A stretch of 64,000 nucleotides of DNA from a virus, in IMG/VR virus record IMGVR_UViG_3300027747_001390, positions 1-64,000 of that record; one strand, written 5' to 3'. The notes below the pieces were generated by a model. The model searched no databases and had not been told where the DNA came from. It saw only the letters and a program-made list of their open reading frames with translations. Both the position numbers and the translations under genes were made by a program. Of this stretch, positions 6,779 to 64,000 are shown piece by piece (the first letter of the stretch is position 1; every line of letters starts with the position of its first letter).

Positions 6779-6950
6779 TAAGTGCCCGTGCAGTGGATGC
6801 AGCGGACGGATGATCACTCGAAGCAGTCGCCAAAGCGGCGATCTTCAGGTGAGGTATCTCCGCTGCCAAGTCTGCGGTCGTCAGGACCGCTGTATCGTCT
6901 CTGCAAACGACGTGCGATCCATTTGCTGGCGTCGCACCAGTCCAAAATAG
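6765..6950 (+). CDS. Small zinc-ribbon protein
   Basis: A 61-residue protein with CPCSGC near the N terminus and CQVC about 25 residues later, the spacing of a small zinc ribbon. The arrangement (CxxC, arginine-rich strand, CxxCG) resembles small phage or bacterial nucleic-acid-binding ribbons. It begins 14 bases inside the end of the giant gene, so it is probably translationally coupled. Its stop codon lies in the first stem of a terminator hairpin, making it the last gene of that transcript. The partner is unknown. Confidence 0.6.
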   Translation: MQSGDKCPCSGCSGRMITRSSRQSGDLQVRYLRCQVCGRQDRCIVSANDVRSICWRRTSPK

Positions 6951-6975
6951 TGTTGTTTCATACAACACTTTCTTT
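6949..6975 (+). terminator. Rho-independent terminator after zinc-ribbon gene
   Basis: A perfect 8-bp stem, AGTGTTGT / ACAACACT (6949-6956 and 6962-6969), with a 5-base loop and a TTTCTTT tail. It overlaps the TAG stop of the zinc-ribbon gene. Confidence 0.75.
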
Positions 6976-7004
6976 GACCCTCTTCTTCGGGTCATTCGTT
7001 CTTT
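6975..7004 (+). terminator. Second hairpin in tandem before the capsid gene
   Basis: TGACCC (6975-6980) pairs with GGGTCA (6989-6994), followed by TTCGTTCTTT. With the hairpin just upstream it forms a double stop or attenuator between the giant genes and the capsid gene. The remaining bases to 7075 hold the capsid leader; I see no clear promoter there. Confidence 0.5.
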
Positions 7005-7075
7005 GACCGTAGTTTGAACGTGTCGCCACGCATCGCGTGGCCGCATCGTCAAACCACTAGCAAGGAACACGAAGC

Positions 7076-8539
7076 ATGGAAGCCTCGGCCAAAGTCAAGA
7101 AGCTCCTCGACGAACTCGCCGCCGTCCTCGCAGAGATGGGCGCGGTTCAGGAGACCGACACCGAGACCGCTGACCAGAACGAGGACATGGCCGAGCAGAA
7201 CGGTATGCCACCCGCCGCCGCTGACGACGAAGCGGCAGACCAAGTCGAGGACACTCAGGAGGTCGAAGGCGAGAAGCAGAAGAAACTTCGCTGCCTGTGC
7301 GAGCGTGCTGAGAAGCTCCGCGACCAGATCACCTTCTACGAGAACGTCGCTGCCAAGGAGCTTGAACTCCGAGCGGTTCTCGACAAGTCCACCCCCGCCA
7401 AGATCGAAACTCGCAACTCCAAGGAGAGTACAGTGAAGATTTCCCCTATCGCCCTTGCGGGCGCAGGCCGACTCAAGAATTTCAAGGGTCCGAATGCCGA
7501 AGAGCGGGCCTACCGCGCTGGTCAATTCTTCCGGGCCACGCTCCTGAAGGACACCGAGGCTCAGCGGTGGTGCAACGACCACGGCGTGACCGAGTCGCGT
7601 GCCCTCAACGAAGGCGTCAACGCTCAGGGCGGCATCTTCGTCAACGAGGAAATCCTCAACGAGATCATCGTCCTCGTCGAAGAGTTCGGTGCGTTCCCGG
7701 CCAATGCCCGCAACCTCCAGATGAAGTCTGACACCCTCATCGTGCCTCGCAGGGTTGGAGGTCTCAAAGCGTATTTTGTCGGAGAAAATACGAGCGTGAG
7801 CGAATCCGACGCCAGTTGGGACCGTGTCCAGCTTGTCGCCAAGAAGGCTGCGGTTGCGAGTCGCATCTCTTCGGAGATTTTGGAAGACTCGTCCGTCCTG
7901 AACCTCGCCGATTATCTGACGGGTGAAGTGTCGAGGGCCATCGCGGAACTCATCGACGTGTGTTCGTTCGTGGGGACTGGCAGCGGCGACCACGGCGGTA
8001 TCGTCGGTGTGGTCAACAAGATCACCGACGGCACTCATGCCGCTGGCGTGATCACGGCTGGCAGCGGCGAGACCGGGGCGCAGTCGCTGACCCTGAACTC
8101 GCTGATCGCTGCGGCTGGTCGTCTCCCGCTGTACGCGAGGGCCAACGCCAAGTGGTACGTGAACCCCGCCGTCTTCGCGGCCAGCGTTCAGCGTCTGGGT
8201 CTCGTCAACAACGTCGGCATCGCTGGCGGCAACACGCCCGCGACCCTGTCGGCGGGAACCGAGATGCGACTTCTCGGATATCCAATTGTTTTCGTGCATA
8301 CACTTTCCAACAACGTGTCGGCTGACCCCGGCGTCGTGAAGTTCCTCTTCGGCGACCTGTCGCTGAGTTCCTTCTACGCGACCCGTCGCGGCCTGACCAT
8401 CAAGCAGTCCACCGAGCGTTATGCGGAACTCGATCAGACGCTGCTCGTCAGCACGATGCGGTTCGACGCGGTCACCCACGACTGCGGTGACGCGAACCGT
8501 GCCGGTCCGATCGTTGCTCTCAAGACTGCGGCCTCCTGA
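7076..8539 (+). CDS. Major capsid protein, HK97 fold
   Basis: A 487-residue protein. The first ~110 residues are acidic and coiled-coil-like (DETADQ-rich, then EKLRDQITFYENV), as in the delta or scaffolding domain of HK97-type capsid precursors. The remainder shows the HK97-family pattern: an early GGIFVNEEI segment, a central LIVPRRVGG region, the spine-helix SSEILEDS, a GTGSGDHGGIVG stretch, and late YPIVFVHTL and FGDLS strands. No protease gene is visible downstream, so it may lie to the left of the window. SD AAGGA sits before the ATG. It builds the icosahedral shell. Confidence 0.9.
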   Translation: MEASAKVKKLLDELAAVLAEMGAVQETDTETADQNEDMAEQNGMPPAAADDEAADQVEDTQEVEGEKQKKLRCLCERAEKLRDQITFYENVAAKELELRAVLDKSTPAKIETRNSKESTVKISPIALAGAGRLKNFKGPNAEERAYRAGQFFRATLLKDTEAQRWCNDHGVTESRALNEGVNAQGGIFVNEEILNEIIVLVEEFGAFPANARNLQMKSDTLIVPRRVGGLKAYFVGENTSVSESDASWDRVQLVAKKAAVASRISSEILEDSSVLNLADYLTGEVSRAIAELIDVCSFVGTGSGDHGGIVGVVNKITDGTHAAGVITAGSGETGAQSLTLNSLIAAAGRLPLYARANAKWYVNPAVFAASVQRLGLVNNVGIAGGNTPATLSAGTEMRLLGYPIVFVHTLSNNVSADPGVVKFLFGDLSLSSFYATRRGLTIKQSTERYAELDQTLLVSTMRFDAVTHDCGDANRAGPIVALKTAAS

Positions 8540-22305: not shown

Positions 22306-23178
22306 TCAGCCGATCTTCGGAAGCACGTCACAGGGCTTCGGCCCCGTTTCAATGAAACGCAAATCGATGTAGGCCTTTGTGACACGTGGCGAACTGTGAT
22401 CAAGCAACGCCGTAGGGTCGCCTCCTCCAGCAAGGAAGTGAGTCGCTGAACTTCTGCGGATCATGTGAAATTTAGTCTTGCGTCCGCCGTCTAGGCCAGC
22501 ACGCTTGACGATCCTTCCAAACGAATGCCAGAGCAAGGTCTTGACCTTGTCCCACGAGAAGATCGCCTGCGACGGCTTCTTACCCCGACACACCTGTTCG
22601 ACAAGGTGCTGGGTCTCAAGTGACAGGCTGTAAAGCTTGTCACGCTTGCCGCCCTTCCTGTGTTCAGCACGGACGAGCAGTTGTCCCTGCTGATAGTCGA
22701 GGACTTGAACCCCCATTATCGCGCCGATGCGTTCCGCCGACTCCCAGAGAACACTCACAAGTGCCCTAAAATAGAGACTCGTCGGAACCCCATCAACAGT
22801 GCCGACTTCCTTGTCAGTCGCACGAATCAAAGATCGAATCTGATCGATCGTCCACGCCGTCGGAATTCTTTCCGGCAGCGTTGCAGGCGGCACGCACGGT
22901 CGTGTCTTGACTAGACCTCGATCGTGAGCGAAGCGAGCCAGACTCAAAAGTTGAGTTCGTTCCTTCTCTGCCGTAAACGCGCTCCTCTCGCTTGCTCGCT
23001 TCGTCAAAAAACGAGCGAGTGAGAGATCGTCGAGGTCAGCCAACGTCGGCTGACGCTGGAGAAACTTAGCAAGCGATCGAAGAGTGCAGTGGTAGAGGCG
23101 AACGGTGTTCTCGCTTTTCCCACGCAGTTTCAGCGGAGCGTAAATCGTCTCGAAAAACTCAACCAGCGTCATCGTCAT
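22306..23178 (-). CDS. int: Tyrosine recombinase (phage integrase)
   Basis: A 290-residue protein on the minus strand. The catalytic domain has R150 (ESAERIGAIMG), a likely lysine in HRKGGKRDK (K175 or K178), H238-x-x-R241 in HMIRRSSATH, H261 in LLDHSSPRV and nucleophile Y270 in TKAYID: the complete tyrosine recombinase set. The N-terminal ~100 residues form a SAM-like core-binding domain. The start at 23178 has AAGGAGGA 9 bases upstream; a longer in-frame start would place a 16-bp inverted repeat in the coding region. It would integrate and excise the phage. Confidence 0.92.
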   Translation of the reverse strand: MTMTLVEFFETIYAPLKLRGKSENTVRLYHCTLRSLAKFLQRQPTLADLDDLSLARFLTKRASERSAFTAEKERTQLLSLARFAHDRGLVKTRPCVPPATLPERIPTAWTIDQIRSLIRATDKEVGTVDGVPTSLYFRALVSVLWESAERIGAIMGVQVLDYQQGQLLVRAEHRKGGKRDKLYSLSLETQHLVEQVCRGKKPSQAIFSWDKVKTLLWHSFGRIVKRAGLDGGRKTKFHMIRRSSATHFLAGGGDPTALLDHSSPRVTKAYIDLRFIETGPKPCDVLPKIG

Positions 23179-23201
23179 GGTGGTGTGTCCTCCTTCATTT
23201 G

Positions 23202-23245
23202 CCACCAGATCGAGGTAGCTCACCACGAGTACCTCGATCTGGTGG
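23202..23245. repeat. 16-bp inverted repeat in the integrase leader
   Basis: CCACCAGATCGAGGTA (23202-23217) and its exact reverse complement (23230-23245), separated by 12 bases, immediately upstream of the integrase Shine-Dalgarno. It may be an operator, an mRNA hairpin hiding the ribosome site, or a recombinase site. Confidence 0.8.
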
Positions 23246-23264
23246 GCAGAGTACACATCCGTGC

Positions 23265-23688: not shown

Positions 23689-23698
23689 GAGTGGTTTG

Positions 23699-23707
23699 TA
23701 CGGAAGC
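23699..23707 (+). promoter_or_regulatory. TACGGA-type element before double-HTH gene
   Basis: TTTG followed by TACGGAAGC, 11 bases after the terminator T-run and 22 bases before the ATG at 23721. Since a terminator precedes it, something here must start transcription, which supports a promoter role. Confidence 0.5.
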
Positions 23708-23720
23708 AAGGAGGACTCTG

Positions 23721-24191
23721 ATGTATTTCAGGCCAATTTCGATCGAAGAGGCAGCAAAGGCGACGGGGCTGACCAAGTCGGGCGTCGTGAAGGCGATCAA
23801 CTCGAAGAGACTTGTGGCGGTGCCGCTCAGCGGCAGGGGGCTGATGCTCTGTCTGGAGCAGTGCAAAGGCCAGTCGTTCGACGCGGCTGAGTTCCGGAAA
23901 CTTTGCAAGAGGTGGATTTGCGTCCCCGAGGCCTGCGACATTGTCTGCAAGACAGACGCTTCGGTGATGCGAGACCTGAGAAGCGGAAAGATTAAGGGTT
24001 TCAGGCTGAACGGCAGGGCTTGGGCGGTCGAGAAGGCCTCGGCAGAGGAGGAGTTTCGCGACTACCTCGCGAACCCCGGCCGTCGGGGACAGCCACGGCA
24101 GATCGGCACGAGCCGGTCGCCGCGTGTGATCCGGAAAAAATCCTTGCACGCCAAGAAGTCGAAGGTACGATCACGCCCCGGCAGCAAGTGA
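23721..24191 (+). CDS. DNA-binding protein with two helix-turn-helix motifs
   Basis: A 156-residue protein starting at an ATG with AGGAGG 8 bases upstream. Two MerR/excisionase-like helix-turn-helix segments: ISIEEAAKATGLTKSGVVKA (residues ~6-25) and ICVPEACDIVCKTDASVMRD (~67-86), each followed by a short wing. The C-terminal tail is very basic (RRGQPR, RKKSLHAKKSK). It is the first gene of the rightward operon and directly faces the lysogeny module, so it is a candidate excisionase or early regulator. Confidence 0.7.
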   Translation: MYFRPISIEEAAKATGLTKSGVVKAINSKRLVAVPLSGRGLMLCLEQCKGQSFDAAEFRKLCKRWICVPEACDIVCKTDASVMRDLRSGKIKGFRLNGRAWAVEKASAEEEFRDYLANPGRRGQPRQIGTSRSPRVIRKKSLHAKKSKVRSRPGSK

Positions 24192-26766: not shown

Positions 26767-26852
26767 ATCGTGGCGTGTGCCATAGATGTGCGGGCCGATG
26801 GGCGCGGTGCTGGTGGTGCCAAGCCGCCACGCTACTGGAGCGACTCGCTTGA
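26763..26852 (+). CDS. Micro-protein with CxxC pair
   Basis: A 29-residue open frame starting at the ATG that overlaps the previous stop and ending in a TGA that overlaps the TTG start of the next gene. It reads MNRGVCHRCAGRWARCWWCQ then AATLLERLA. Two CxxC pairs 6 residues apart could hold one zinc. The ATGA/TTGA chain on both sides is what supports it as a gene. Confidence 0.5.
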   Translation: MNRGVCHRCAGRWARCWWCQAATLLERLA

Positions 26853-27442
26853 ACGCCGACATCCCAACGCTTCGATGCTGGGTAAGACTGCCTTACATCG
26901 CCGACTCAAGCGGCGTCGAGGAGGCCTATGCGTTCGCGATTCAAAGCATCGGCGGACGTGCCCTTGGATTTCACTGCATGATGATCAGCGGTGCCCACTA
27001 TCGCGGTGTGCCGATCCACGCTATCGCCCTGCGTCCTGACGCCGTCGAGACCACTTTGGGCGATTGCCAGTTGTGGGACTGCTTCTCTGCTCGTCCGGTT
27101 GTTCATGTGTTTGACTACCTTCGCGGCCACAGGTGCATCGCATACACTCGAAGCGGTTCGCAGAACGGACGGTATCTATTCACGGCAGACTGGCTTCCCG
27201 AGACTCAAGAGCGTCCGGGGTTCACGCTGACTCCTGAGCAGAACAAGTGTGCGCACGTGATCGCGTTGGACAACGGCAATCTCTGTGCGTTGCCCACAAA
27301 CCGCATCGCGTGGACGGACGCCTACTTCGTTGGTGGCAGGCCAAACCCACGGAGTCGCGGCTATCGAGTCCAGTCTGAGGTGTATCGGTGCGAAGGCGGC
27401 GACTGGGACGTGTCGAAAGACGAGAGGTATATGTATGAGTGA
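26849..27442 (+). CDS. Hypothetical protein
   Basis: A 197-residue protein; the TTG start overlapping the previous stop is chosen over a longer in-frame start because it continues the operon's overlap pattern. Beta-rich, with several Cys and Trp/Tyr residues (PVVHVFDYLRGHRCIAYTR, KCAHVIALDNGNLCALP). No family recognised. Confidence 0.6.
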   Translation: MNADIPTLRCWVRLPYIADSSGVEEAYAFAIQSIGGRALGFHCMMISGAHYRGVPIHAIALRPDAVETTLGDCQLWDCFSARPVVHVFDYLRGHRCIAYTRSGSQNGRYLFTADWLPETQERPGFTLTPEQNKCAHVIALDNGNLCALPTNRIAWTDAYFVGGRPNPRSRGYRVQSEVYRCEGGDWDVSKDERYMYE

Positions 27443-27929: not shown

Positions 27930-28619
27930 ATGCCCAAGCAACAGCGAGTGAAAAAGTCTCGACCGAAGCAGCCGGTAGCCATCGAGCCGCTTCGCGACGT
28001 CGAGATCGTGCCGCTCAACCGCCAGCAAGACGCGGCATTGAAAGCCGTTGCTCGCTCGTCGATCTCGTTTCTTATTGGACCGGCCGGAACAGGCAAGACT
28101 CACCTCGCGTGCGGTTACGCCGCGCGGTGCGTGGCTGACGGTCGCTTCGAGAGAATCATCTTGACGCGTCCGATCGTCGAGGCTGGCGAGAGTCTTGGAT
28201 ACTTGCCCGGCACGTTTGAGGAAAAAGCCGCGCCGTATCTCTTGCCGATTCACGACGCGCTCGACGCCGTCGCCGGTCGCACTGGTAGACGTCGCGAGCA
28301 ACTCAGGGCGATGCTTCAGGTCGCGCCGATCGCCTACCTTCGTGGAAGAAGTTTCAACCGCTCAATCGTCATCGTCGACGAGTCTCAGAACTGCACGCTC
28401 TCGCAACTCAAGCTTGTCATCACGAGACTAGGCCGAGACTCGCAGATGATCCTGACCGGCGACCTGTCGCAGAGCGATCTTCGCACTCACGAGCAAGCTC
28501 TTGGGACGGTAGTCAACAAACTTGAAGGACTGCCGGGAGTCACCGTCTTCCGGTTCGACTCGACTGGGATTGTCCGCCATCCGATTCTCGCGGGTGTGCT
28601 GGAACGCCTAGGAAACTAG
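27930..28619 (+). CDS. phoH: PhoH-family ATPase
   Basis: A 229-residue protein with Walker A GPAGTGKT at residues 50-57, Walker B IVIVDESQN around D150 and a later ILTGDLSQSD sensor segment, the signature of PhoH-like ATPases. An LTRPIVEAGESLGYLPGT stretch is also typical. PhoH is widespread in aquatic phages; its exact role (RNA metabolism, phosphate stress) is unsettled. It is the last gene before a terminator. Confidence 0.9.
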   Translation: MPKQQRVKKSRPKQPVAIEPLRDVEIVPLNRQQDAALKAVARSSISFLIGPAGTGKTHLACGYAARCVADGRFERIILTRPIVEAGESLGYLPGTFEEKAAPYLLPIHDALDAVAGRTGRRREQLRAMLQVAPIAYLRGRSFNRSIVIVDESQNCTLSQLKLVITRLGRDSQMILTGDLSQSDLRTHEQALGTVVNKLEGLPGVTVFRFDSTGIVRHPILAGVLERLGN

Positions 28620-28657: not shown

Positions 28658-28686
28658 TTGACATTAGGCCTACGTAGGCCTATCTT
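28658..28686 (+). promoter_or_regulatory. Early promoter with full palindromic operator
   Basis: TTGACA (28658-28663), 17-base spacer, TATCTT (28681-28686). The spacer holds a perfect 18-bp palindrome TAGGCCTACGTAGGCCTA (28665-28682). About 49 bases separate the -10 from the GTG of the AAA ATPase gene. Confidence 0.75.
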
Positions 28687-28729
28687 ATGGGGGCAGTCGA
28701 TTTCAGCCTTCAACCAAAGGAACACACCA

Positions 28730-29815
28730 GTGAACACAACTCTCGCCGCCCCAGCATGGAAGTCCTACCGCGTCGGCACGATCGTCAAGCTCGACGACGG
28801 ACGCAGCTTCACGATCGACAGCATCTCGATCGTTCACACTGACCGTGGCTACAACTCCCGCCGCTTCACCCTGCGTGGCCCCGGCGGCAAGGAAGTCGTC
28901 AAGTCGAGCCGTGGCATCACCCTCTGGGTGGCTGGTCTCGAAAACGATCGCGGCGAGCCGACGCCCGCCGCCAAGCCTGTTGAGAAGCCGCCGGTCTCGC
29001 CGGTCGTCACGACGGCTGGCAAGATACAGCACGCCTACTTCGAGGCACTGCTGCGGATCGTAAGGGCACGCCGCAACTCGTGGCTTTGCGGCCCGGCGGG
29101 CAGCGGTAAGACGACGTCTGCCAGCGAGGTGGCGAAGCTTCTCGGGCTGCGATTCTTTGCTAAGTCTGTCGGTCCGCAGGTGACCGAGTCGAGCCTGATT
29201 GGCTATCAGGACGCCAACGGTAGGACTGTCCGGACTCAGCTTCGCGAGGCGTTCGAGTTTGGCGGCGTGTTCCTCCTCGACGAGGTCGATGCCGCCAGCC
29301 CGGCGGTTTTGGTCGTCATCAACGCCCTGTTAGCCAACGGCGAGGCTTCCTTCCCCGACGTCGTCGTCGAGAAGCATCCGGATTTCGTCTTGATTGCCGG
29401 TGCCAACACGATCGGCCTCGGCGCGGATCGCCAGTACGTTGGACGTCAGCAGATCGACGCTGCCACCCTCGACCGCTTCGTCCTGCTCGACTGGCCCTAC
29501 GATCCCCGGATCGAGGCGGCTGCGGCTGGCGTGGACGTGTCGGCTGTGTCGAAGTCGGCCTGCCCGTCCCCGTTCCGATTCGAGAGCGAGGACGGTGCTG
29601 AGGCTCGTTGCTACGAGTACGTTCAGAAGGTGGTCGCGATCCGCAATGCGGTCTCCACCTTCGGCAAGGCCGTCCGCGTGATCATCAGTCCCCGCGCCTC
29701 GATCAACGGAACGGCCCTGATCCGGCAGGGCTTCTCGATTAACGACGCCCTGACCCTTTGCGTCTGGAAAGGTCTGGATACGGACACCCGCTCGAAGATC
29801 GAGGGGGCTTGCTAA
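28730..29815 (+). CDS. AAA+ ATPase, MoxR/CobS-like
   Basis: A 361-residue protein. The N-terminal ~100 residues are a beta-rich domain followed by a Pro/Lys linker. The AAA core has Walker A GPAGSGKT (121-128), Walker B FLLDEVDA (D184-E185) and a later ATLDRFVLLDWPYD segment, typical of MoxR/CobS-type ATPases. GTG start with AAGGA upstream and the usual leader length from the promoter. The next gene may encode its partner; MoxR ATPases often remodel partners together with a vWA protein. Confidence 0.85.
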   Translation: MNTTLAAPAWKSYRVGTIVKLDDGRSFTIDSISIVHTDRGYNSRRFTLRGPGGKEVVKSSRGITLWVAGLENDRGEPTPAAKPVEKPPVSPVVTTAGKIQHAYFEALLRIVRARRNSWLCGPAGSGKTTSASEVAKLLGLRFFAKSVGPQVTESSLIGYQDANGRTVRTQLREAFEFGGVFLLDEVDAASPAVLVVINALLANGEASFPDVVVEKHPDFVLIAGANTIGLGADRQYVGRQQIDAATLDRFVLLDWPYDPRIEAAAAGVDVSAVSKSACPSPFRFESEDGAEARCYEYVQKVVAIRNAVSTFGKAVRVIISPRASINGTALIRQGFSINDALTLCVWKGLDTDTRSKIEGAC

Positions 29816-41268: not shown

Positions 41269-42189
41269 ATGACCAACATTCGCACCGACGTCCACGCCCC
41301 CTCTTCCGCCGCCTTCGATCCGAGCCTCTACGATTGCTACGGCTGCTGGGACGGTAGCCCTGAATTTGTTTGCGTCGGCTTCGATCCGCTCCAAGAGTAT
41401 CGCGAGCAAATCAAGTCTCTCGTCGCCCGTGGCTACACGTGCGGCAGGGGCTGCAAGGCAGTCTGCGGCCACTGCGGCGCGAACATCCGCTACTTCGCCC
41501 TGCTCGTCCGCGACGACGTCAAGCAGTTCATCCACGTCGGCGAGCAGTGCCTCGACAACCGCTTTCAGGTCGAGACTGCTGCCGAGTTTCAGAATCTCCG
41601 CAAGTCCGCGAAGCTGAACCGCGAGCGGGCTACCCGCGACGAGCGGATCGAGTCCCTCCGCCAGAACCCGGCGATCGCCCGTCTCCTCGACGGCGGAAGG
41701 GACGTCGAGGCCAGCGAGTTCCTCTACGACGTCCGGAGCAAGGCTCTCGAATACGGGCGTCTCAGCGACGGCCAGATCGCAGCCGTGGAGCGGGCCTTCG
41801 CGCAGATTGCCCGCCGGGAGCAGTGGGCGGCGGAGCGGCGTGCGGAAGCTCTCCGTCTGGCTGAGGCTGGCGTCAAGGCACCGGAGGGGCGTGTCGAGGT
41901 GACTGGCGTGGTGCTGTCGGCCAAGGAACACCAGAGCCAGTTCGGCACCGCGATCAAGATCGTGGTCAAGTCGGACGACGGCTGGAAGGTCTGGACGACC
42001 GCCCCGGCGTCGCTGTTGATCAACGTCGATGCCGCAGCCGTGAAGTCTGCCACGACGGTCATCGATGAGGTCCGCGAGGCTCTCGTCGGCAAGCGGATCA
42101 AGTTCGTGGCCGCTCTCACTCGAAGCCCTAGCGACGCCGCCTTCGCCTTCGGCAAGCGGCCCACGAAGGCCTCGTTCGTCGCGGCTTGA
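41269..42189 (+). CDS. Conserved phage protein with zinc cluster
   Basis: A 306-residue protein. DCYGCWDGSPEFVCVGFD, then GYTCGRGCKAVCGHCGANIR and HVGEQCLDNRF: a multi-cysteine region I recognise from actinobacteriophage proteins of unknown role. A long helical middle and a C-terminal OB-like half (RVEVTGVVLSAKEHQSQFGT, KIVVKSDDGWKVWTTAP) could bind single-stranded nucleic acid. Own promoter. Confidence 0.65.
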   Translation: MTNIRTDVHAPSSAAFDPSLYDCYGCWDGSPEFVCVGFDPLQEYREQIKSLVARGYTCGRGCKAVCGHCGANIRYFALLVRDDVKQFIHVGEQCLDNRFQVETAAEFQNLRKSAKLNRERATRDERIESLRQNPAIARLLDGGRDVEASEFLYDVRSKALEYGRLSDGQIAAVERAFAQIARREQWAAERRAEALRLAEAGVKAPEGRVEVTGVVLSAKEHQSQFGTAIKIVVKSDDGWKVWTTAPASLLINVDAAAVKSATTVIDEVREALVGKRIKFVAALTRSPSDAAFAFGKRPTKASFVAA

Positions 42190-53131: not shown

Positions 53132-53599
53132 ATGCCCAAGCCTCTGCCCGGCGTCGTTGACGCGTTGAACGCTGGCCTCCGGAATCACTGGACTCAGATT
53201 CTGCTCTACGAGTCGCAGGCCGCTCACCTCGCCCGCTGGGGTTACAAGAAGCTTGGCGTCGAGTTTCTTGCCTACGCCGAAGAGGAACGCGAACACGCTC
53301 GCAAGGTCATCCAGCGTCTTGAGTTCTTCGACGCTCAGCCCGGATACGAGTTCGAGCAGCCGATCTGGCCTCGTCACGATTTCGAGGGCATCCTCGAAGT
53401 GAACTACACGCTAGACCAGACCGCCGCAAACGCCGAAAGGTCTGGATACCTTCTCTGCGTTGAACTTGGTGACGCTGATACCGCGACGATCTTCGCCGAT
53501 CTCTTGAGGGGCAGCGAGAACGGCATGGCCGAGATCGAGGCCGCTCGCCTCGTGATCGATCAGATCGGTCTCGACAACTATCTGGCGAACCAGACGTGA
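53132..53599 (+). CDS. Bacterioferritin-like protein with altered ferroxidase site
   Basis: A 155-residue four-helix protein. LNAGLRNHW...YESQAAHLARWG, AEEEREHARKVIQRLEFFDA and a C-terminal IGLDNYLANQT align by eye with bacterioferritin. E52-R-E-H55 keeps the ExxH pair, but the first ligand Glu appears to be H19 and the last-helix ExxH appears as S-E-N-G. The haem methionine position is Arg. It may store or bind iron differently, or be structural. ATG with AAAGGAG upstream. Confidence 0.7.
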   Translation: MPKPLPGVVDALNAGLRNHWTQILLYESQAAHLARWGYKKLGVEFLAYAEEEREHARKVIQRLEFFDAQPGYEFEQPIWPRHDFEGILEVNYTLDQTAANAERSGYLLCVELGDADTATIFADLLRGSENGMAEIEAARLVIDQIGLDNYLANQT

Positions 53600-54855
53600 T
53601 CATCATGGCATCGCAGAAGATCATCCAAAGCGACTGCCTAGACGGGCTTCGGACTCTTGCCGACGGCAGCATCCATTGCTGCGTCACGTCGCCGCCCTAC
53701 TGGGGCTTGCGTGACTACGGGCACGAAGGGCAGATCGGACTTGAGGGCACGCCTGACGCCTACGTTGCTCGCATGGTAGAGGTGTTCCGCGAGGTGCGGC
53801 GAGTACTGCGTGACGATGGGACTTGCTGGGTGAATTTGGGCGACTCTTACGCCGCAGCACCGGCAGGCAAGTGTTCCAACCCGCACGCCAAAAGCGGCTT
53901 GGCTGGAGTCAAGACTCAAGGCGTCGCTCGAAAGCACAAAGAATCATGGAACTCAGCAAAGGCGTCTGGACTAAAACAGAAAGACCTCGTCGGCATCCCG
54001 TGGCGTGTCGCCTTCGCCTTGCAGGCTGACGGCTGGTGGTTGCGGCAGGACATCATCTGGCACAAGCCAAACCCGATGCCCGAGAGCGTGCGTGACCGAT
54101 GCACCAAGGCACACGAGTACGTCTTTCTGCTGACGAAGAGCGGCCGATATTTCTATGACGCGGAGGCTGTGAGCGAGGAGTCTGTGACTGCTGCCGACGG
54201 TCGTGGATCAACAGAAGAGAGAAAGGCGTTGGGCCACCCCTCTCGATATGGAGACACTGCCGGTAAGGCCTCTCGTGGCGAGGGCTGGTCAATGCCGTCG
54301 CTCTCCCCAAAAGCGTCGGGCCGCAACCGCCGCTCTGTATGGAAGATCGCCACTAAGTCATACCGAGGCGCACACTTCGCCACGATGCCTCCTCAGCTTG
54401 CAGAAACGTGCCTGCGGGCTGGTACGAGCGAGGCTGGATGTTGCTCGCTGTGCGGCACGCCTCACGAGCGTGTCGTCGATCGCAAGCGAGTCGCGACTCG
54501 TCCCGGCACAGACACGAAAGTCACTGGCGACACGATGACTGACGGCAACCGCGACCCGGAGCGGCACGTCACCACGACCACAACGACAGGCTGGCGTCCG
54601 ACGTGTAGCTGCAACGCTTCAGTGTCGCCATGCACTGTACTCGATCCGTTCGGCGGCTCAGGAACGACTCTGGCAGTTGCTGCCGAGCTTGGCCTGAACG
54701 GCATCGGCTTCGAGTTGAACGATGACTACATCGGACTCGCAGAAGAACGTATCGCCAAGTCGCGAGACAAGGCTCCGCTATTCATCGGACCACCATGTCC
54801 GAAAGGTGCTGCGTTCATCGGCACCAGTGGTCGCCAAGCCGGGGGTGGCGTGTAA
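53596..54855 (+). CDS. DNA methyltransferase (N6-adenine or N4-cytosine type)
   Basis: A 419-residue protein. TSPPYWGLR (motif IV, residues 31-39) precedes DPFGGSGTTLAVAAE (motif I, 350-364) and GFELNDDYIGLAEERI, the beta-class order. KPNPMPESVRDRCTKAHEYV and FLLTKSGRYFYD are typical of phage members, and a ribbon (CCSLCGTP ... CSC) lies in the target-recognition part. It methylates DNA, probably phage DNA against host restriction. GTG start in a GTGA overlap; ATG at 53605 is an alternative. Confidence 0.9.
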   Translation: MIIMASQKIIQSDCLDGLRTLADGSIHCCVTSPPYWGLRDYGHEGQIGLEGTPDAYVARMVEVFREVRRVLRDDGTCWVNLGDSYAAAPAGKCSNPHAKSGLAGVKTQGVARKHKESWNSAKASGLKQKDLVGIPWRVAFALQADGWWLRQDIIWHKPNPMPESVRDRCTKAHEYVFLLTKSGRYFYDAEAVSEESVTAADGRGSTEERKALGHPSRYGDTAGKASRGEGWSMPSLSPKASGRNRRSVWKIATKSYRGAHFATMPPQLAETCLRAGTSEAGCCSLCGTPHERVVDRKRVATRPGTDTKVTGDTMTDGNRDPERHVTTTTTTGWRPTCSCNASVSPCTVLDPFGGSGTTLAVAAELGLNGIGFELNDDYIGLAEERIAKSRDKAPLFIGPPCPKGAAFIGTSGRQAGGGV

Positions 54856-56510: not shown

Positions 56511-56890
56511 GACGTCTTCTGGCCTCGGCCGAGATGCTGATCAATGGCATTTCTCCGTCGAGGCCAGAGGACGATCACGGGTTCGACATCGTCTCTGTGT
56601 ATGGATCAAAGCTATGCCGCGTTCAAGTCAAGACTGTCTACATCCAGAAGCCGAGGCCTGTCACCCTGTCAGAGACGTTTCCAGTTCGTCGTCGAGCAGG
56701 GTGCAGGCGTCAGCGACCAGACGATCAGAACTCTCAGTATGCAGACGGCGAGTTGGACGCGTTCGTGTTTGTCAGTCTCGTCACGAGGTCTTTCTGGGTG
56801 ATGCCAATCAATGAGATCGAATTATCGAAGTATCGAGTGTCACTTCGCAAAGACTCGCCGTGGCACAACGCGTGGCACGTCCTGAAATGA
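56474..56890 (+). CDS. PD-(D/E)XK nuclease-like protein (2 of 4)
   Basis: A 138-residue protein: GEVGRLLASAEMLINGIS, then GFD38IVSVYGSKLCRVQ51-V-K53 and LDAFVFVSLVTRSFWVMP. Classic D...Q-V-K with a following hydrophobic strand, as in Holliday-junction resolvase-like or restriction folds. Overlaps the GP88 gene. Confidence 0.6.
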   Translation: MSPISPRAAGEVGRLLASAEMLINGISPSRPEDDHGFDIVSVYGSKLCRVQVKTVYIQKPRPVTLSETFPVRRRAGCRRQRPDDQNSQYADGELDAFVFVSLVTRSFWVMPINEIELSKYRVSLRKDSPWHNAWHVLK

Positions 56891-57186
56891 CACTCGAAAC
56901 CACCATAACGAAGTCGATCGTGACGCTCGCGAAAGCGAAGGGGTGGTGGACGTTCAAGATCGCTGGCGGACCTATGCAGATGGCTGGAGTTCCAGACTTG
57001 TTGACGGTGAAGCATGGCCGTGCTGTGTTCCTCGAAGTGAAGCAGCCGGGAAAGAAGCCTCGCCCGCTTCAGGTGCAGAGGATGAAAGAAATACGCGAGA
57101 TTGGCGGAGCCGTCGCGCAAGTGGTTACGAGCAGGGCTGAGGCAGAAAGGATTCTCGATGCGAACGATAACGCTCACTCTTCCTGA
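56887..57186 (+). CDS. VRR-NUC domain nuclease (3 of 4)
   Basis: A 99-residue protein, start in an ATGA overlap. KIAGGPMQMAGVPD37LLTVKHGRAVFLE50-V-K52QPGKKPRPLQ is the complete VRR-NUC motif (D...ExK). Stand-alone phage VRR-NUC proteins act as structure-specific nucleases. Overlaps the next gene by 29 bases. Confidence 0.85.
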   Translation: MTLETTITKSIVTLAKAKGWWTFKIAGGPMQMAGVPDLLTVKHGRAVFLEVKQPGKKPRPLQVQRMKEIREIGGAVAQVVTSRAEAERILDANDNAHSS

Positions 57187-57782: not shown

Positions 57783-58187
57783 ATGCGAGCGTTCACTACG
57801 ACGGTTCGGCAGCTAAGCCTCATCGATGCAGAGTGCATCATCACGAGGCTGACGAAGCCGAAGTCGGAGTTTCAGATCGAGGTCACAGAAAAGACTTCGA
57901 CGACTCCGGTGGCGATCGTGAGAACGGATCAGGAGAGAGTGGCGGCATGGACGGCAACGCACTTCTGGCGAGGAATGCAGACGCTGGAGGGATTCACGGA
58001 TTTATCTCTTCGGCGTCGCGGCTTTGCTCGTGTTGCAGCGAGTCTGCTCATCGCCGACTGCTCCATCGATCCACGCGAGACACTGGCAGTCTTCTCACCG
58101 CAGTGCGTTTCGATCGCAACTGCGTTGGGTTGTAGGGACGTTCGATTGTTCGAGCGTCAGGGTAAGGAGTGGGTTCGGAATTCATAG
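57783..58187 (+). CDS. GNAT-like acetyltransferase
   Basis: A 134-residue protein. DLSLRRRGFARVAASLLIAD gives the R-x-x-G-x-A acetyl-CoA loop of GNATs, followed by VFSPQCVSIATALGCRDVRL as motif B. The N-terminal part is variable. Substrate unknown. Confidence 0.6.
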   Translation: MRAFTTTVRQLSLIDAECIITRLTKPKSEFQIEVTEKTSTTPVAIVRTDQERVAAWTATHFWRGMQTLEGFTDLSLRRRGFARVAASLLIADCSIDPRETLAVFSPQCVSIATALGCRDVRLFERQGKEWVRNS

Positions 58188-58203: not shown

Positions 58204-58578
58204 ATGTTTTTTTTGCTGTTGATTGCGTTGATGGGCGATTGCACGAATCTGACTGAGTCGGAGTCGCAGGTCGTCGTAGAGACGAACTCTGCCCGTGCTG
58301 AGGCCGGTCTTCCGCCTCTGGTCATCGACTGCCGTTTGATGGGTCGCGCTCGTCGTCACGCCGCTCGCATGGCGAACGAGGGTTTCTTCGCGCACTCAAG
58401 TGGTGCGACAGAGAACATCGCTACTGGTCAACCTCACGCTGCTGCTGTGGTTCGCACGTGGCTAAACAGTCCCGGTCATCGGGCGAACATCCTCAGCCGT
58501 AGCAGCACTCGCATCGGAGTCGCTGGCTTCGTCGGCCGAGACGGAAAAACTTACTGGGTGCAGCAGTTCGCGCCCTGA
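58204..58578 (+). CDS. Secreted CAP-domain (SCP-like) protein
   Basis: A 124-residue protein. The N terminus MFFLLLIALMGDC looks like a short signal or lipoprotein-like leader. The mature part has the CAP order: NSARAEAGLPPL, H in RARRHAARMANEGFFAHSSG, ENIATG, VRTWLNSPGHRANILS and TYWVQQFAP. Bacterial CAP proteins are extracellular; substrates are unclear. ATG with AAGGAGGG upstream. Confidence 0.8.
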   Translation: MFFLLLIALMGDCTNLTESESQVVVETNSARAEAGLPPLVIDCRLMGRARRHAARMANEGFFAHSSGATENIATGQPHAAAVVRTWLNSPGHRANILSRSSTRIGVAGFVGRDGKTYWVQQFAP

Positions 58579-58683
58579 TCGTCCCCTCCGGTGGTCCTGC
58601 CGTCGCTTCGTCGGGTAGGCGAGGCGGCGGTGGGCCACTCTGGAAAGCACACATGATCTTTTCTTTTTTCTGGAGGTGGATTC
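58579..58683. other. Structured intergenic region
   Basis: 105 bases. Around 58590-58640 several GC stems are possible (GTGGTCC with GGGCCAC, and GCCGTCGC with GCGAGGCGGC, imperfect), then a T-rich run (CTTTTCTTTTTTC). It could be a terminator or a leader; not resolved. Confidence 0.35.
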
Positions 58684-59055
58684 GTGGACAAGGAAGTCAA
58701 GTACATCAAGAACCGGCTCGACATGACGACTCAGGACGCGACGGAGATGTTCGAGTACCTCAAGTTGAACTGGAGTTCGGCAAGAGTGTCGGACATGGCG
58801 ACGCACCTCAAGCTGTCGCCAACGACAGTCCGAAGCATCGCTCGAAAAATAAATCTCGGCCCAAGGCCCGAAAGGGCATCGCATCTCGACCCAAGTCTCG
58901 ACGAGATAAAGCGTCGCGCGGCAGCGATCCGAAAGACGTGGAGTCACGAGGAGAAGGCGAGAAGAGACCTTCTCGGAAGAAGCGAGGCCGGGGTGGGCCG
59001 TCGAGTGGTTAGTCTTGGCATCGAAGCACCTTCTTTTTCGAGGAACTGGCTATGA
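58684..59055 (+). CDS. HTH protein A bracketing the glycan cassette
   Basis: A 123-residue protein, GTG with GGAGG upstream. ARVSDMATHLKLSPTTVRSI and ARKINLG form a helix-turn-helix; a later DEIKRRAAAIRKTWSHEEKA helix ends the conserved part. The (S/T)W(S/T)xEE+ segment and HTH recur in the gene at 61157. Probably a DNA-binding regulator or terminase-small-subunit-like protein. ATGA overlap with the FkbM gene. Confidence 0.6.
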   Translation: MDKEVKYIKNRLDMTTQDATEMFEYLKLNWSSARVSDMATHLKLSPTTVRSIARKINLGPRPERASHLDPSLDEIKRRAAAIRKTWSHEEKARRDLLGRSEAGVGRRVVSLGIEAPSFSRNWL

Positions 59056-59645
59056 CTATCGTTGAGTTCTGGCTGACTGAGCCTGTGCTGAGCGGCATCA
59101 ATCGTCTGGAGAGCAAGTCTCTGGCGGTGGACGTCGGCGCGAACGTCGGGACGTGGGCTGCGACGCTGTGTCAGATGTTCGACGAGGTTCTTGCCTTCGA
59201 GCCAGACGAGCGAAACTACTCGCAGATTCCAGCCGCCGAGAACCTCACTGTCGTCAGGGCGGCTGTGTCTGACCAGACTGGCGAGACTCCGTTCTTCGTT
59301 CGCTCGTCGTCTGGGCACAACTCGATCCTCGAAGTGCATCCGATCGGCGGCGAGGGCATGGCTCCCGTCCCTGTCGTCGAAGAGAAGACCGTCTCGTGCT
59401 TCTCTCTGGACGACGCGTGCGGCAACGGTGCCGACTTCGTAAAGATCGACATCGAGGGGGGCGAGGTGCTGGCTCTTCAGGGGATCGTTGACGTCCTGAA
59501 ATGGTCTCGCACTTTGTTTGTCATCGAGTGTCACGACACTTTCCATGACGTCGAGCGTGAGCTTGCTCGCCTTGGCAAGCGAGTCACTCGCATTCCGCAC
59601 CCGCTCGTATCGCACCCCGGTCACTGTTGGGCAATCGGCGAATGA
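59052..59645 (+). CDS. FkbM-family methyltransferase
   Basis: A 197-residue protein. VDVGANVGTWA (residues 26-36, SAM-binding), AFEPDERNY, VVRAAVSDQTGETPFFV and DFVKIDIEGGEVLALQG, the full FkbM signature. FkbM enzymes O-methylate sugars or polyketides. With the two genes that follow it likely acts on a glycan. ATGA overlaps on both sides. Confidence 0.85.
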   Translation: MTIVEFWLTEPVLSGINRLESKSLAVDVGANVGTWAATLCQMFDEVLAFEPDERNYSQIPAAENLTVVRAAVSDQTGETPFFVRSSSGHNSILEVHPIGGEGMAPVPVVEEKTVSCFSLDDACGNGADFVKIDIEGGEVLALQGIVDVLKWSRTLFVIECHDTFHDVERELARLGKRVTRIPHPLVSHPGHCWAIGE

Positions 59646-60307
59646 TCCTAGTCTCGCAGTCGTACACGCCACAGTCTGAGCATCGAACCCGAGAGCTTCA
59701 GAAGGTGCGACTGCACAACGAGACTTCAGGCCTGTTCGATCGCGTCGAGTACCTAGACGCTGGAGATCGAACGATCTCTTTCAGTGAGCTTCACGAGTAT
59801 TGCGTCTCGAAGCACCGTGGGCAGTGGTGCGTGATCGCCAACAGCGACATCACGTTCAACGCGACGGCCTATATGATCAAAGGCCTGAGCAAGGCGGGCA
59901 GGCTCGTGGCATTGACTCGATGGGATAGCCACTACGGCCCACGCTTCATAGGTCAGCAGCATGAAGACAAGTTCTTCAGTGGCTCTCAGGACTCGTGGGC
60001 TTTTCTGGCGGGATCGCTGCCTCCCCTGACGATCGACATACCGCTCGCCGTCATGGGTTGCGACCAAGTGATAGTCGGTTGGGCGTGCATGGGGGGCATT
60101 GAGGTCATCAATCCTGCCCTGACGATCAAGACGACTCACGTCCACGAGTTGGACGACCGGCCAGCCGACAGACCGGCTGCGTCTGGATTCTTTGGCTACC
60201 CGCATCTCACGACGATGCACACGAGCGGAGAGGTTCTCTGCCACGAGTGGCCTCGCGGTGACGGCGAATGGGAATACGAATGGCAACTATATCGCTACGC
60301 GAAATAG
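59642..60307 (+). CDS. Glycosyltransferase-like protein
   Basis: A 221-residue protein. MILVSQSYTPQSEHRTRELQ, then WCVIANSDITFN, RLVALTRWD, SWAFLAGSLPP and VMGCDQVIVGWACM. The NSDI stands where a GT-A DxD would be, and DSWAF..G and C-D...W resemble GT2-like proteins of phage and bacterial capsular clusters. Start in an ATGA overlap. Confidence 0.6.
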   Translation: MILVSQSYTPQSEHRTRELQKVRLHNETSGLFDRVEYLDAGDRTISFSELHEYCVSKHRGQWCVIANSDITFNATAYMIKGLSKAGRLVALTRWDSHYGPRFIGQQHEDKFFSGSQDSWAFLAGSLPPLTIDIPLAVMGCDQVIVGWACMGGIEVINPALTIKTTHVHELDDRPADRPAASGFFGYPHLTTMHTSGEVLCHEWPRGDGEWEYEWQLYRYAK

Positions 60308-61260
60308 AGCAGCACCACCCGGACCTGTTGCTGCCACCGGACGAGGAGTTCGCGAACTACTACGGCGAGTTCGCTGACGTCGGGCTCGAACGAGCCAAGT
60401 CTCTCAGGGTGGCGTTCGTGGCGATCTGCCGCAACGCGATGCCGTTCCTGCCTTTCACGATGCAATACGTGAAGTCTGCCGGGGAGTGCTTCGAGGACTA
60501 CAAGGTCTTCATCTACGAGAACGACTCGAACGATGGCACGAAAGACTTTTTGTCTCAGTGGTCAGACGGCTCACGCAACTTCTGCTCGCTGAAAGACAAC
60601 GGCAGGCCTCACCTGAACTCGACCAAGCACGAGTCGAGAACGCTCGCTCTGGCCGAGTACCGCAACGCGTGCAGGCGGTGGGTGGACGGCGACTCGATGG
60701 ACTTTGACTACGTGGTCGTGTTCGACACAGACCCGTGGGGAGGGTTCAGCGTCGGAGGAATAATGAACACGATCGGACGGATGGAGGGTCGCAGCCATCT
60801 CTGGACGTCTGGCATGGCGAGCTACTCGTGGTGCGAATGGGGTCCGCCGGTCTGGTCGAGGCCGACTCTGTGCCAGTACGACGCTTGGGCCTGTCGCTGG
60901 ACTGGATGGAAAGAACGTAAGGATATGCTCTGGTTCCATCTCTGGCACCCGCCTGTCGGGTCGCCGCCCGTGAAGATGAACAGTGCCTTCGGTCAGCTTG
61001 CCGTCTACCGGGAGAAGAGCTTCCTGATGGGCGTTTACAGGGGCGACGACTGCGAACACGTGAGCTTTCACAGGACGATGGGGGGCGATCTCTATTTGAA
61101 CCCTGCTATGCGATGCGTTTCGTTTTGGATTCCAGAGGAGGGGGCAAGGATGCCCGATGGCTCGATCGACGACGGTAATTTGCACGACGACCTTCACGGC
61201 GTTGTGGATCGCGGGGACGCCGACCCGGATCATCAGTCAGACGCTGAAAATCTCGGCTGA
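60280..61260 (+). CDS. Glycosyltransferase, CAP59-like
   Basis: A 326-residue protein. RVAFVAICRNAMPFLPFTMQ, FIYENDSNDGTKDFLSQW and YVVVFDTDPWGGFSVGGIMN. The ENDS.D.T and D-x-D order is typical of the cryptococcal CAP59-like mannosyltransferase family found in bacteria and viruses. Starts at 60280 (ATG) or 60268; both overlap the previous gene. It probably adds a sugar in the same pathway as its neighbours. Confidence 0.7.
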   Translation: MATISLREIEQHHPDLLLPPDEEFANYYGEFADVGLERAKSLRVAFVAICRNAMPFLPFTMQYVKSAGECFEDYKVFIYENDSNDGTKDFLSQWSDGSRNFCSLKDNGRPHLNSTKHESRTLALAEYRNACRRWVDGDSMDFDYVVVFDTDPWGGFSVGGIMNTIGRMEGRSHLWTSGMASYSWCEWGPPVWSRPTLCQYDAWACRWTGWKERKDMLWFHLWHPPVGSPPVKMNSAFGQLAVYREKSFLMGVYRGDDCEHVSFHRTMGGDLYLNPAMRCVSFWIPEEGARMPDGSIDDGNLHDDLHGVVDRGDADPDHQSDAENLG

Positions 61261-61555
61261 CCGCTGCGACACGACTCGCAAACAGCTTGGACTCGCGAGA
61301 CGCGAGTCTTGGCACGGCTCGAAGACCGGCCACAGAAAGGCGTATCTGCCGAGTGAGTCCGAGATCAGGCAGAAGTGCCTTGAGTTTCAGGCGGGCTGGA
61401 CAGACGAAGAACGCGAGCGTCGTCGAGTCGGTGGAGTCGTCAAGCACGTCCCATACGAGGCTCCAGTCGTTCCGGAGAGCCTGTTCCGATTTTCTGACGA
61501 CGACGAGTCGGGTCCGCAGACTTATCTGGAAGGTCTGATCGATACTTCCGGGTGA
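61157..61555 (+). CDS. HTH protein B bracketing the glycan cassette
   Basis: Up to 132 residues from the ATG at 61157, but a start near 61202 (TTG) would coincide with the beginning of the HTH, ALWIAGTPTRIISQTLKISA. FQAGWTDEERERR matches the ending of the protein at 58684. It overlaps the end of the glycosyltransferase gene by about 100 bases, which is unusual for this genome and makes the exact start doubtful. Confidence 0.55.
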   Translation: MARSTTVICTTTFTALWIAGTPTRIISQTLKISADRCDTTRKQLGLARRESWHGSKTGHRKAYLPSESEIRQKCLEFQAGWTDEERERRRVGGVVKHVPYEAPVVPESLFRFSDDDESGPQTYLEGLIDTSG

Positions 61556-61583
61556 TCGCTGTCGCTTGCTAGGCTGAAAAGGT

Positions 61584-61805
61584 ATGGGCCAACTCCACGT
61601 TTACGCGAGGCTTTTCCTCGCCGCTGGCGACGACCGGGCACGGGCTCAAGTGTTCGCTGAGGCGGTGGAGTGGCTCGAACACACGGCTGAGACGACGATC
61701 GAAAAAGGCCTAAAAACCCGTATTTTTGCGATTCTTTGCACCCGCGAGGGTGAAGACTTTCTCCGCTGGGTGACCGCGAATGACGCTGAAAACGGCCACT
61801 CTTGA
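61584..61805 (+). CDS. Hypothetical protein
   Basis: A 73-residue helical protein: RARAQVFAEAVEWLEHTAET, then REGEDFLRWVTANDAENG. It precedes the lysis-type genes and overlaps the next by 26 bases. No family recognised. Confidence 0.5.
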   Translation: MGQLHVYARLFLAAGDDRARAQVFAEAVEWLEHTAETTIEKGLKTRIFAILCTREGEDFLRWVTANDAENGHS

Positions 61806-62776: not shown

Positions 62777-63240
62777 CGACTCTTCAACGGCAGATCGCAG
62801 CGGGGTGCCTCGTAGCACTCGCGTTGCTCGTGTGGGCCTTTGATCGCGGCAGCGACGACGCTGCACCGAATCCCGGTCCAGTTCCTCCGGCGGGACTCGT
62901 TCTTCGCGGCCTGTTCATCGGGCAGAACGCCTCGTCGGACGCACAAATGCTTTCAGCCCTCACCGCAGAAGTCGGCGACTGCATCGAATACGACGGCACG
63001 AGGCCTGATCCTCGCTTGAAGACTGGCGTCGCGTTTGACGACCTTCGCATTGCTGCTCGCGAGGCACGTTTGCGTGGCGAGAGTCTTGGTGCCCGCCAGC
63101 CGAAGGTCAAGGAAGCGATTCACGCCTACCTCGACGAGGCCGTTGGTACATCTGGCGGACCTGTGACTCCTGCGGATCGAGCCAAGTGGGTCGCCGCAAT
63201 GCGAGACATCTCAAGGGCTTGTTCCGATGCCGCGAAGTAG
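62773..63240 (+). CDS. Membrane-anchored protein
   Basis: A 155-residue protein with an N-terminal anchor (LVALALLVWAF), a Pro/Gly linker and a helical domain (VGDCIEYDGTRPDPRLKTGV, FDDLRIAAREARLRGESLGA). Its end overlaps the next ATG by 14 bases. Possibly a periplasm-facing partner of the papain-like enzyme. No family recognised. Confidence 0.5.
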   Translation: MTTLQRQIAAGCLVALALLVWAFDRGSDDAAPNPGPVPPAGLVLRGLFIGQNASSDAQMLSALTAEVGDCIEYDGTRPDPRLKTGVAFDDLRIAAREARLRGESLGARQPKVKEAIHAYLDEAVGTSGGPVTPADRAKWVAAMRDISRACSDAAK

Positions 63241-64000
63241 AATCACAATCTCGGCTCTCGTCACTGTGATCGTCGTGTCGTTCCTCGGCGCGCTCGTGCA
63301 GTTGGCGACGTTCCGTCTGGCTAATCACCTTGAGAACAATTTCGGCTACCAGCCAAACCCGGCTGGTCTGAGAGAGTTCTTAGGTGAACTCAAGGAGCCG
63401 ACGTTCGCTCAGGCTGGGGCCGACGCGGTGAAGAAGGCGAAGGGGAAGGACGTGTACCTTTATCGGTACGCTGATCAGGCTCACCGCAAAGTGTATGGGA
63501 CGCCGTTCACTGCGTGGAATCAGGGCTCTGCGGGAACTTGTGTCAGTTTTGGGTGGGCTGTGTCGGCGTATTTCGGACAAGCGACGGATCACGCGACCGG
63601 CGAGCTACCAAATCCTCCTCTCGAAGTCGACACGTCCGGAATTTACGGCGGAAGTAGAACGGCGGGAAGAAATCCACCCGTAACCTTCGCCGGGTATTCA
63701 GATGGAAGCTTTGGGGCGGCGGCGGCGAGGTGGGTCTCTGGCAAGTGCAAGCAGCCCGGCGTAGGCGGAATTCTTTACAAGAAAAAGTACGGAAGCGTTG
63801 ACCTCACTGAGTATTCGATTCCACGTTCTCGTGAGTGGGGAGCGAACGGCGTGCCGCTCGATCTCGCAAAGGAAGCCAATAAGCACACGGCTCGTGCGGT
63901 GGCTCAAGTCTCGACGTGGGAAGAACTGAGCGCGGCACTGGAGTCAGGTTTTTGCGTGCCTATTTGCTCGAACGTGGGCTTCGCTGCGACGAACGTAAGA
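63227..64000 (+). CDS. Membrane-anchored papain-like cysteine peptidase-fold protein, partial
   Basis: The frame is open to the window end; 258 residues are visible. After an N-terminal hydrophobic segment (ISALVTVIVVSFLGALVQLA) comes NQ99GSAGTC105VSFGWAVSAY, the oxyanion-hole Gln and nucleophile Cys of C1/papain-like peptidases (NQGxxGxC). The His and Asn are outside the window. Next to membrane proteins it could be part of lysis or envelope processing; classic endolysin folds are not seen here. Confidence 0.75.
   Translation, partial: MPRSRITISALVTVIVVSFLGALVQLATFRLANHLENNFGYQPNPAGLREFLGELKEPTFAQAGADAVKKAKGKDVYLYRYADQAHRKVYGTPFTAWNQGSAGTCVSFGWAVSAYFGQATDHATGELPNPPLEVDTSGIYGGSRTAGRNPPVTFAGYSDGSFGAAAARWVSGKCKQPGVGGILYKKKYGSVDLTEYSIPRSREWGANGVPLDLAKEANKHTARAVAQVSTWEELSAALESGFCVPICSNVGFAATNVR

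Follow-up and report, generated by a model that had tools for sequence, protein, structure and literature searches.

A proposed glycan operon with exchangeable cargo between related helix-turn-helix genes and behind a covarying leader in probably temperate phages

A phage locus in which a methyltransferase gene and two glycosyltransferase (GT)-like genes lie between two helix-turn-helix (HTH) genes raises two questions: whether the group is captured whole or is a resident operon, and on which glycan its products would act. The locus lies in a window of 64,000 nt, the whole stretch of DNA analysed here, which is part of a 75,626-base IMG/VR virus record. The record encodes a tape-measure protein, a major head protein, helicases and a recombination exonuclease.

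Operon layout and gene products

A preliminary description of this DNA had drawn the layout HTH, FkbM, two GT-like, HTH at 58684-61555, and all five ORFs (A-E) are present there. They form one overlapping head-to-tail operon, which adjoins lysis and tail/LamG-like genes. The operon and its neighbours are as follows, in window coordinates.

57783-58187, (+): left neighbour, GNAT-like by eye, no Pfam match; in 29 of 30 loci
58204-58578, (+): left neighbour, CAP-domain protein, the region from 58258 matching PF00188 at 8.7e-19; present at 20 of the 30 loci compared
58580-58646, (+): leader, invariant CCCCTCCGGTGG, then a long hairpin of variable sequence closed by GCCA; 38 nt before gene A
58684-59055, (+): gene A, left bracket, HTH and C-terminal PxxxEI..W(S/T)xEE module; GTG start, SD GGAGG
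59052-59645, (+): gene B, FkbM-type SAM methyltransferase
59642-60307, (+): gene C, GT-A-fold glycosyltransferase-like by predicted structure
60268-61260, (+): gene D, GT2/CAP59-like glycosyltransferase, D153xD155 invariant; probably starts at 60280
61157-61555, (+): gene E, right bracket, HTH and the same C-terminal module as A
63227-64000, (+): right neighbour, papain-like by motif (QGSAGTC..H..NSWG), no Pfam match; extends to 64330 in the record; in 27 of 30 loci

Genes A and B overlap by 4 nt, B and C by 4 nt, and D and E by 104 nt. The tail of D that overlaps E is not conserved, and in L023 and L025, which have an extra gene between D and E, D stops soon past SFWIP/SFWVP. The start of C is most likely ATG 59642 and that of D is probably ATG 60280 (MATISL..). 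No match was found in a sigma70 promoter scan. A TAGTCTGGATA-like stretch at about 61570-61600, downstream of E, is conserved in several relatives and could be a promoter. An additional ORF (X, 58653-59012, (+)) overlaps A in the +1 frame. The codons at its start (M-I/F-x-W/F-L/F..RR) are found again in 13 phages and span the A ribosome site. We did not retain X as a constrained coding body, because substitutions follow the frame of gene A and the body of X looks unconstrained.

B is an FkbM methyltransferase (PF05050, 4.1e-16, 60 bits against a cut-off of 22.7, residues 27-177; phrog_8156, 4.7e-21). C gave no Pfam or PHROG match. Its predicted model is confident (pLDDT 91.6, pTM 0.89) and adopts the GT-A fold: Foldseek matched GT-A enzymes at E<1e-3, VIA gave Z up to 13.5, and the structural matches include 2p73 (PBCV-1) and mimivirus and STIV proteins. 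N67-x-D69, R93-W94 and H166/H168 are invariant in the alignment of C. From the fold, C is predicted to be a glycosyltransferase with transfer activity. D scored weakly, under the curated Pfam cut-offs, against GT2 models (PF13704, 4.5e-5; PF00535, 0.009), and its CAP59 score was weak too. The DxD of D is invariant in 27 sequences, in which the total of invariant alignment columns exceeds 80.

Hydropathy pointed to no flippase or membrane GT, with peaks below 1.6 in A-E and in the cargo of this phage group; the highest peak, 1.8, belonged to one GT2 of L043, from the second phage group described below. Pfam likewise gave no match to a membrane flippase or membrane GT in the cassette or in the cargo of its relatives.

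Genes elsewhere in the window

Three features outside the operon bear on the way of life of the phage and on its DNA.

22309-23256, (-): tyrosine integrase, phrog_1 at 1.4e-20
23691-24188: excisionase-like ORF, weak match
53596-54855, (+): DNA methylase, PF01555 at 5e-44, upstream of the operon

A tyrosine integrase was found in 6/6 large records checked, which suggests that phages of this family are probably temperate; the mention of lysogens in the preliminary description was thus reasonable. GcrA reads methylated DNA, so a link between the phage methylase and the GcrA-like HTHs of A and E (see below) is conceivable. The phage also has a dCMP deaminase match. Ferredoxin-family, PhoH-like and porphyrin-biosynthesis (CobS-like) matches were seen at 26786-27439, 27930-28619 and 28658-29815, respectively, all (+). 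A single tRNA-Thr (cgt) was called within a long ORF at 41600-41670 (-), and a small protein judged nuclease-like by eye is encoded at 56860-57186 (+), outside the bracket.

The two bracket proteins are homologous

Pairwise BLASTP between A and E was marginal (2e-4). When profiles of 29 A and 28 E sequences were compared with hhalign, the two families proved homologous (Prob 98, E ~1e-14), as had been proposed for the bracket, and the HTH and the C-terminal helix aligned together. At the proposed (S/T)W(S/T)xEE(K/R) signature of that helix, A carries TWSHEEK and E reads GWTDEER.

Both HTH proteins occur in 16/16 bracket-bearing records among the 18 virus records searched. Exactly two family members were found in 15 of these 16, and G017 has one more match, of 14.9 bits, bearing a stop codon. 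The remaining two records (L185, L044) gave one partial match or none. A search with E, independent of D, returned 45 loci, and D was present wherever upstream sequence was covered; in L076 the contig ends at E. Relatives of E were found neither among INPHARED phages nor among GTDB genomes, so no prophage was seen, and D had no relatives among INPHARED phages. The two proteins are unequally conserved, A being far more divergent than E (mean identity 0.36 against 0.67), and the HTH of E is nearly invariant. A is not always needed, since it is absent from L033 (4566-5247), where leader and E remain, and is interrupted by TGA in L059 (2803-3348).

Relatives of A match HTH models (PF13384/PF18024), and A matches PDB 2lvs (3e-4). 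The model of E is modest (pLDDT 71) and its Foldseek matches alone are not significant. The best match of its HTH is the GcrA DNA-binding domain (Z 6.7, which is below Z 8; rmsd 1.2; 45/49 aligned). By sequence, GcrA was reached with A only, at a PDB E of 1.3, and the PDB sequence search with C, D and E gave nothing useful.

The C-terminal module points to Planctomycetota

The C-terminal module of A and E has no model in Pfam or NCBIfam and, like the leader, was absent from the preliminary description. Its PTPxEI..W(S/T)xxER motif is also found in small Planctomycetota proteins without the HTH part of A. The module occurs in 13/294 Planctomycetota genomes and in 0/299 Pseudomonadota genomes, and the best cellular relatives of D are mostly from Planctomycetota. 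Taken together, these distributions suggest that the host is probably a planctomycete. Small Planctomycetota proteins with a PTPxEI..W(S/T)xER module were recorded as L253-L261. A literature search on phages of Planctomycetes found no paper under the phrases searched.

A covarying leader precedes gene A

The leader, a third fixed element of the bracket, starts directly after the stop codon of the CAP-domain protein. In an alignment of the regions upstream of A from 26 phages, the sequence of the hairpin varies freely and its pairing is kept: 10 of the 18 pairs show compensatory changes. Covariation was 0.497, against 0.226 +/- 0.017 after shuffling, with 75 against 29 double-change cells (0/500). 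G-U pairs are frequent, which suggests that the leader acts at the RNA level.

The leader model, R1, scores 68 bits in this phage and the leader has no Rfam match. Six large genomes each contain it once. When the viral collection was scanned for the DNA pattern, without use of the proteins, 69 contigs were returned, and every previously unfound match of at least 59 bits had A adjoining. Nothing above 14.4 bits was found in cassette-less relatives or in the host loci tested. Pattern matches below 33 bits, including L239 at 32.6 without A nearby, were judged to be chance. In the fold of the window, CCCCTCC pairs with the A ribosome site as an anti-Shine-Dalgarno. This pairing is found in only some relatives, and masking of the site is not claimed because of that inconsistency. 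The leader is best described as a structured RNA with a covarying helix upstream of the operon, with a putative cis-regulatory role.

Cargo varies within a fixed address

Relatives of D were found at 46 loci on about 30 distinct contigs. About 30 distinct phage contigs preserve the bracket, and the cargo between A and E takes at least nine forms, so that the group has the cassette character attributed to it. B-C-D is the content in most; the others are B-GTx-C-D, C-D, MT24-GT-C-D, MT-GTx-C-D, GTx-B-C-D-GT34-like, B-DUF3431-RGP-C-GT2-D-GTx, GT2-like-B-C-D and GT2-like-MT-MT-C-D. In L091, which is phage-like and was placed in the bin of a Planctomycetia MAG, the bracket encloses nuclease-MT24-GTx-D. 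GTx is a GT34-like family common to eight loci. B is missing in L017 and is replaced by another methyltransferase in L021, L032, L207 and L091, and extra GT34-like, GT2-like, RGP and DUF3431 genes come and go. A GT-like ORF of the L039 cargo lies at 6207-7376. All cargo enzymes belong to sugar or methyl chemistry (FkbM, Methyltransf_24, RGP, GT2, GT34-like). The small protein at 1183-1476 of L091, inside the bracket, is nuclease-like (Hjc, 5e-4).

In a second group of phages (L043, L044, L092), the gene after D encodes a less closely related HTH protein (Prob 90 with A), with rmlC-type epimerase and GT2 genes before it. The address is fixed, with the same left and right neighbours at the loci counted above, and in phages less closely related the right neighbour is present and the cassette absent. 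In a tree whose long branches leave the rooting unsure, the D proteins of phages group as a single clade (87/94; 90% of bootstrap trees), separate from a planctomycete clade. No long direct repeats were found as recombination ends. With no end repeats, a single D clade and a constant address, the earlier suggestion of a cassette acquired or duplicated as a unit is not supported. The locus looks instead like an old resident one with exchangeable parts, not repeatedly captured whole. In Planctomycetia chromosomes, relatives of C and D sit beside gmd, TylF and GT4 genes, a setting which indicates that C/D-type enzymes belong to a host-type glycan pathway.

Discussion

Our tentative preference, which we hold to be nearly an even chance, is for a resident glycan operon that regulates itself in probably temperate Planctomycetota phages and acts most likely on a host surface-glycan intermediate. 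Transcription would cross the hairpin leader, then A, then variable cytosolic glycosyltransferases and O-methyltransferases, and then E. C and D would transfer sugars, and the methyltransferase would cap or O-methylate them. A and E, encoded first and last, may be regulators with a GcrA-like HTH that set the output of the operon; of the two, E, whose HTH is nearly invariant, is the stronger candidate for recognising the invariant leader or its DNA. The acceptor would most likely be a cytosolic intermediate of a host surface glycan; rival or sibling phages would then no longer be bound by the lysogen or infected cell, and exchange of cargo genes would diversify the sugar.

This reading is supported by the bracket and fixed address in about 30 contigs, by the presence of both HTH proteins in all bracket-bearing records and of D with E wherever this could be seen, and by a covarying leader, single in each genome, that gives only noise in cassette-less relatives. 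The uniform sugar and methyl chemistry of the cargo, the chromosomal relatives of C and D, the integrase and the GcrA-like HTH fold also speak for it. The modest model of E, the loss of A in L033 and its stop in L059, the lack of a promoter match and the absence of E relatives from the GTDB genomes count against it. So does the absence of a membrane GT and of a flippase, which classical serotype conversion needs. Host surface is slightly favoured over virion because of the probable lysogeny of these phages and the host-type character of the enzymes.

Glycosylation of the virion is almost as probable. In that case the products of the operon would, in the cytosol, furnish a capsid or tail protein with an O-methylated glycan to shield or tune adsorption, as in PBCV-1 or some mycobacteriophages. 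Soluble GTs with a methyltransferase recall PBCV-1 A064R, a GT-GT-methyltransferase acting on the capsid glycan (PMC7826918), and the structural matches of C include PBCV-1, mimivirus and STIV proteins. PMC12619734 cites reports of glycans on mycobacteriophage capsid and tail tube. The site beside the lysis and tail/LamG-like genes suits late virion-modifying genes equally. However, a GT-A fold says nothing on the acceptor, and the integrase makes lysogenic roles plausible. The bracket might also be incidental, if two old phage HTH paralogs of unrelated roles merely flank a hot spot for moron insertion. The divergence of A, its loss in L033 and the variable cargo that a hot spot would yield agree with this. 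We consider it improbable, as E was always accompanied by D where upstream sequence is covered, each HTH gene shares 4-104 nt with a cargo gene, the leader is found together with this cassette only, and the divergent contig L091 has the same bracket. The suggestion that the enzymes modify DNA sugars, with the GTs acting on modified bases of the phage genome, fared worst and seems to us very improbable. Virus GTs that place diverse glycans on DNA exist (Pyle 2024, as cited in PMC12619734), and the phage has the DNA methylase and the dCMP deaminase match. Against this, no thymidylate-synthase-type gene (PF00303) was found in six large records, in a search whose positive control was detected; no Tet_JBP (PF12851) match was found in a search run without a positive control; and the cargo resembles surface-glycan genes.

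A and E might also found a new phage regulator family, in which a GcrA-like HTH is joined to a Planctomycetota-restricted PTPxEI..W(S/T)xEE interaction module. Together with the invariant leader RNA they would be dedicated to the control of a glycan cassette with exchangeable parts, E reading the leader and the module contacting a host-specific partner. We regard this reading as doubtful. The locus gives a testable handle on possible sugar reshaping by phages of Planctomycetes. It also offers a leader RNA that covaries and matches no Rfam family, and a small module, without a Pfam or NCBIfam model, common to phage regulators and small planctomycete proteins. Through the exchange of cargo between fixed regulators, the diversification of surface glycans could be tested directly.

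Comparison with known systems

Like PBCV-1 A064R and other chlorovirus virion-glycan enzymes, the operon encodes viral soluble GTs and a methyltransferase that would cap the glycan, with a GT-A fold match. Here these are separate genes of a bacterial phage, with paired HTH genes and an RNA leader. The HTH fold of A and E may be that of GcrA of Caulobacter and the GcrA homolog of phage phiCbK (Z 6.7 for E); phages can carry such homologs (PMC7987155). Their C-terminal module differs, two copies bracket the operon, and the sequence link is weak (A, PDB E 1.3). In the chromosomal cluster gmd-C-TylF-GT4-D of Planctomycetia, the relatives of C and D follow the order of the phage genes and are separated by methyltransferase and GT genes; identity is about 30%, and HTH bracket and leader are absent. 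With the gtrABC serotype-conversion cassettes the operon has in common a small exchangeable sugar cassette, integrase-bearing phages and a likely surface effect. It was rejected as a classical gtrABC cassette because the membrane parts, a flippase and a polytopic GT, are missing by hydropathy and Pfam; in contrast to gtrABC, it has soluble GTs and bracketing regulators.
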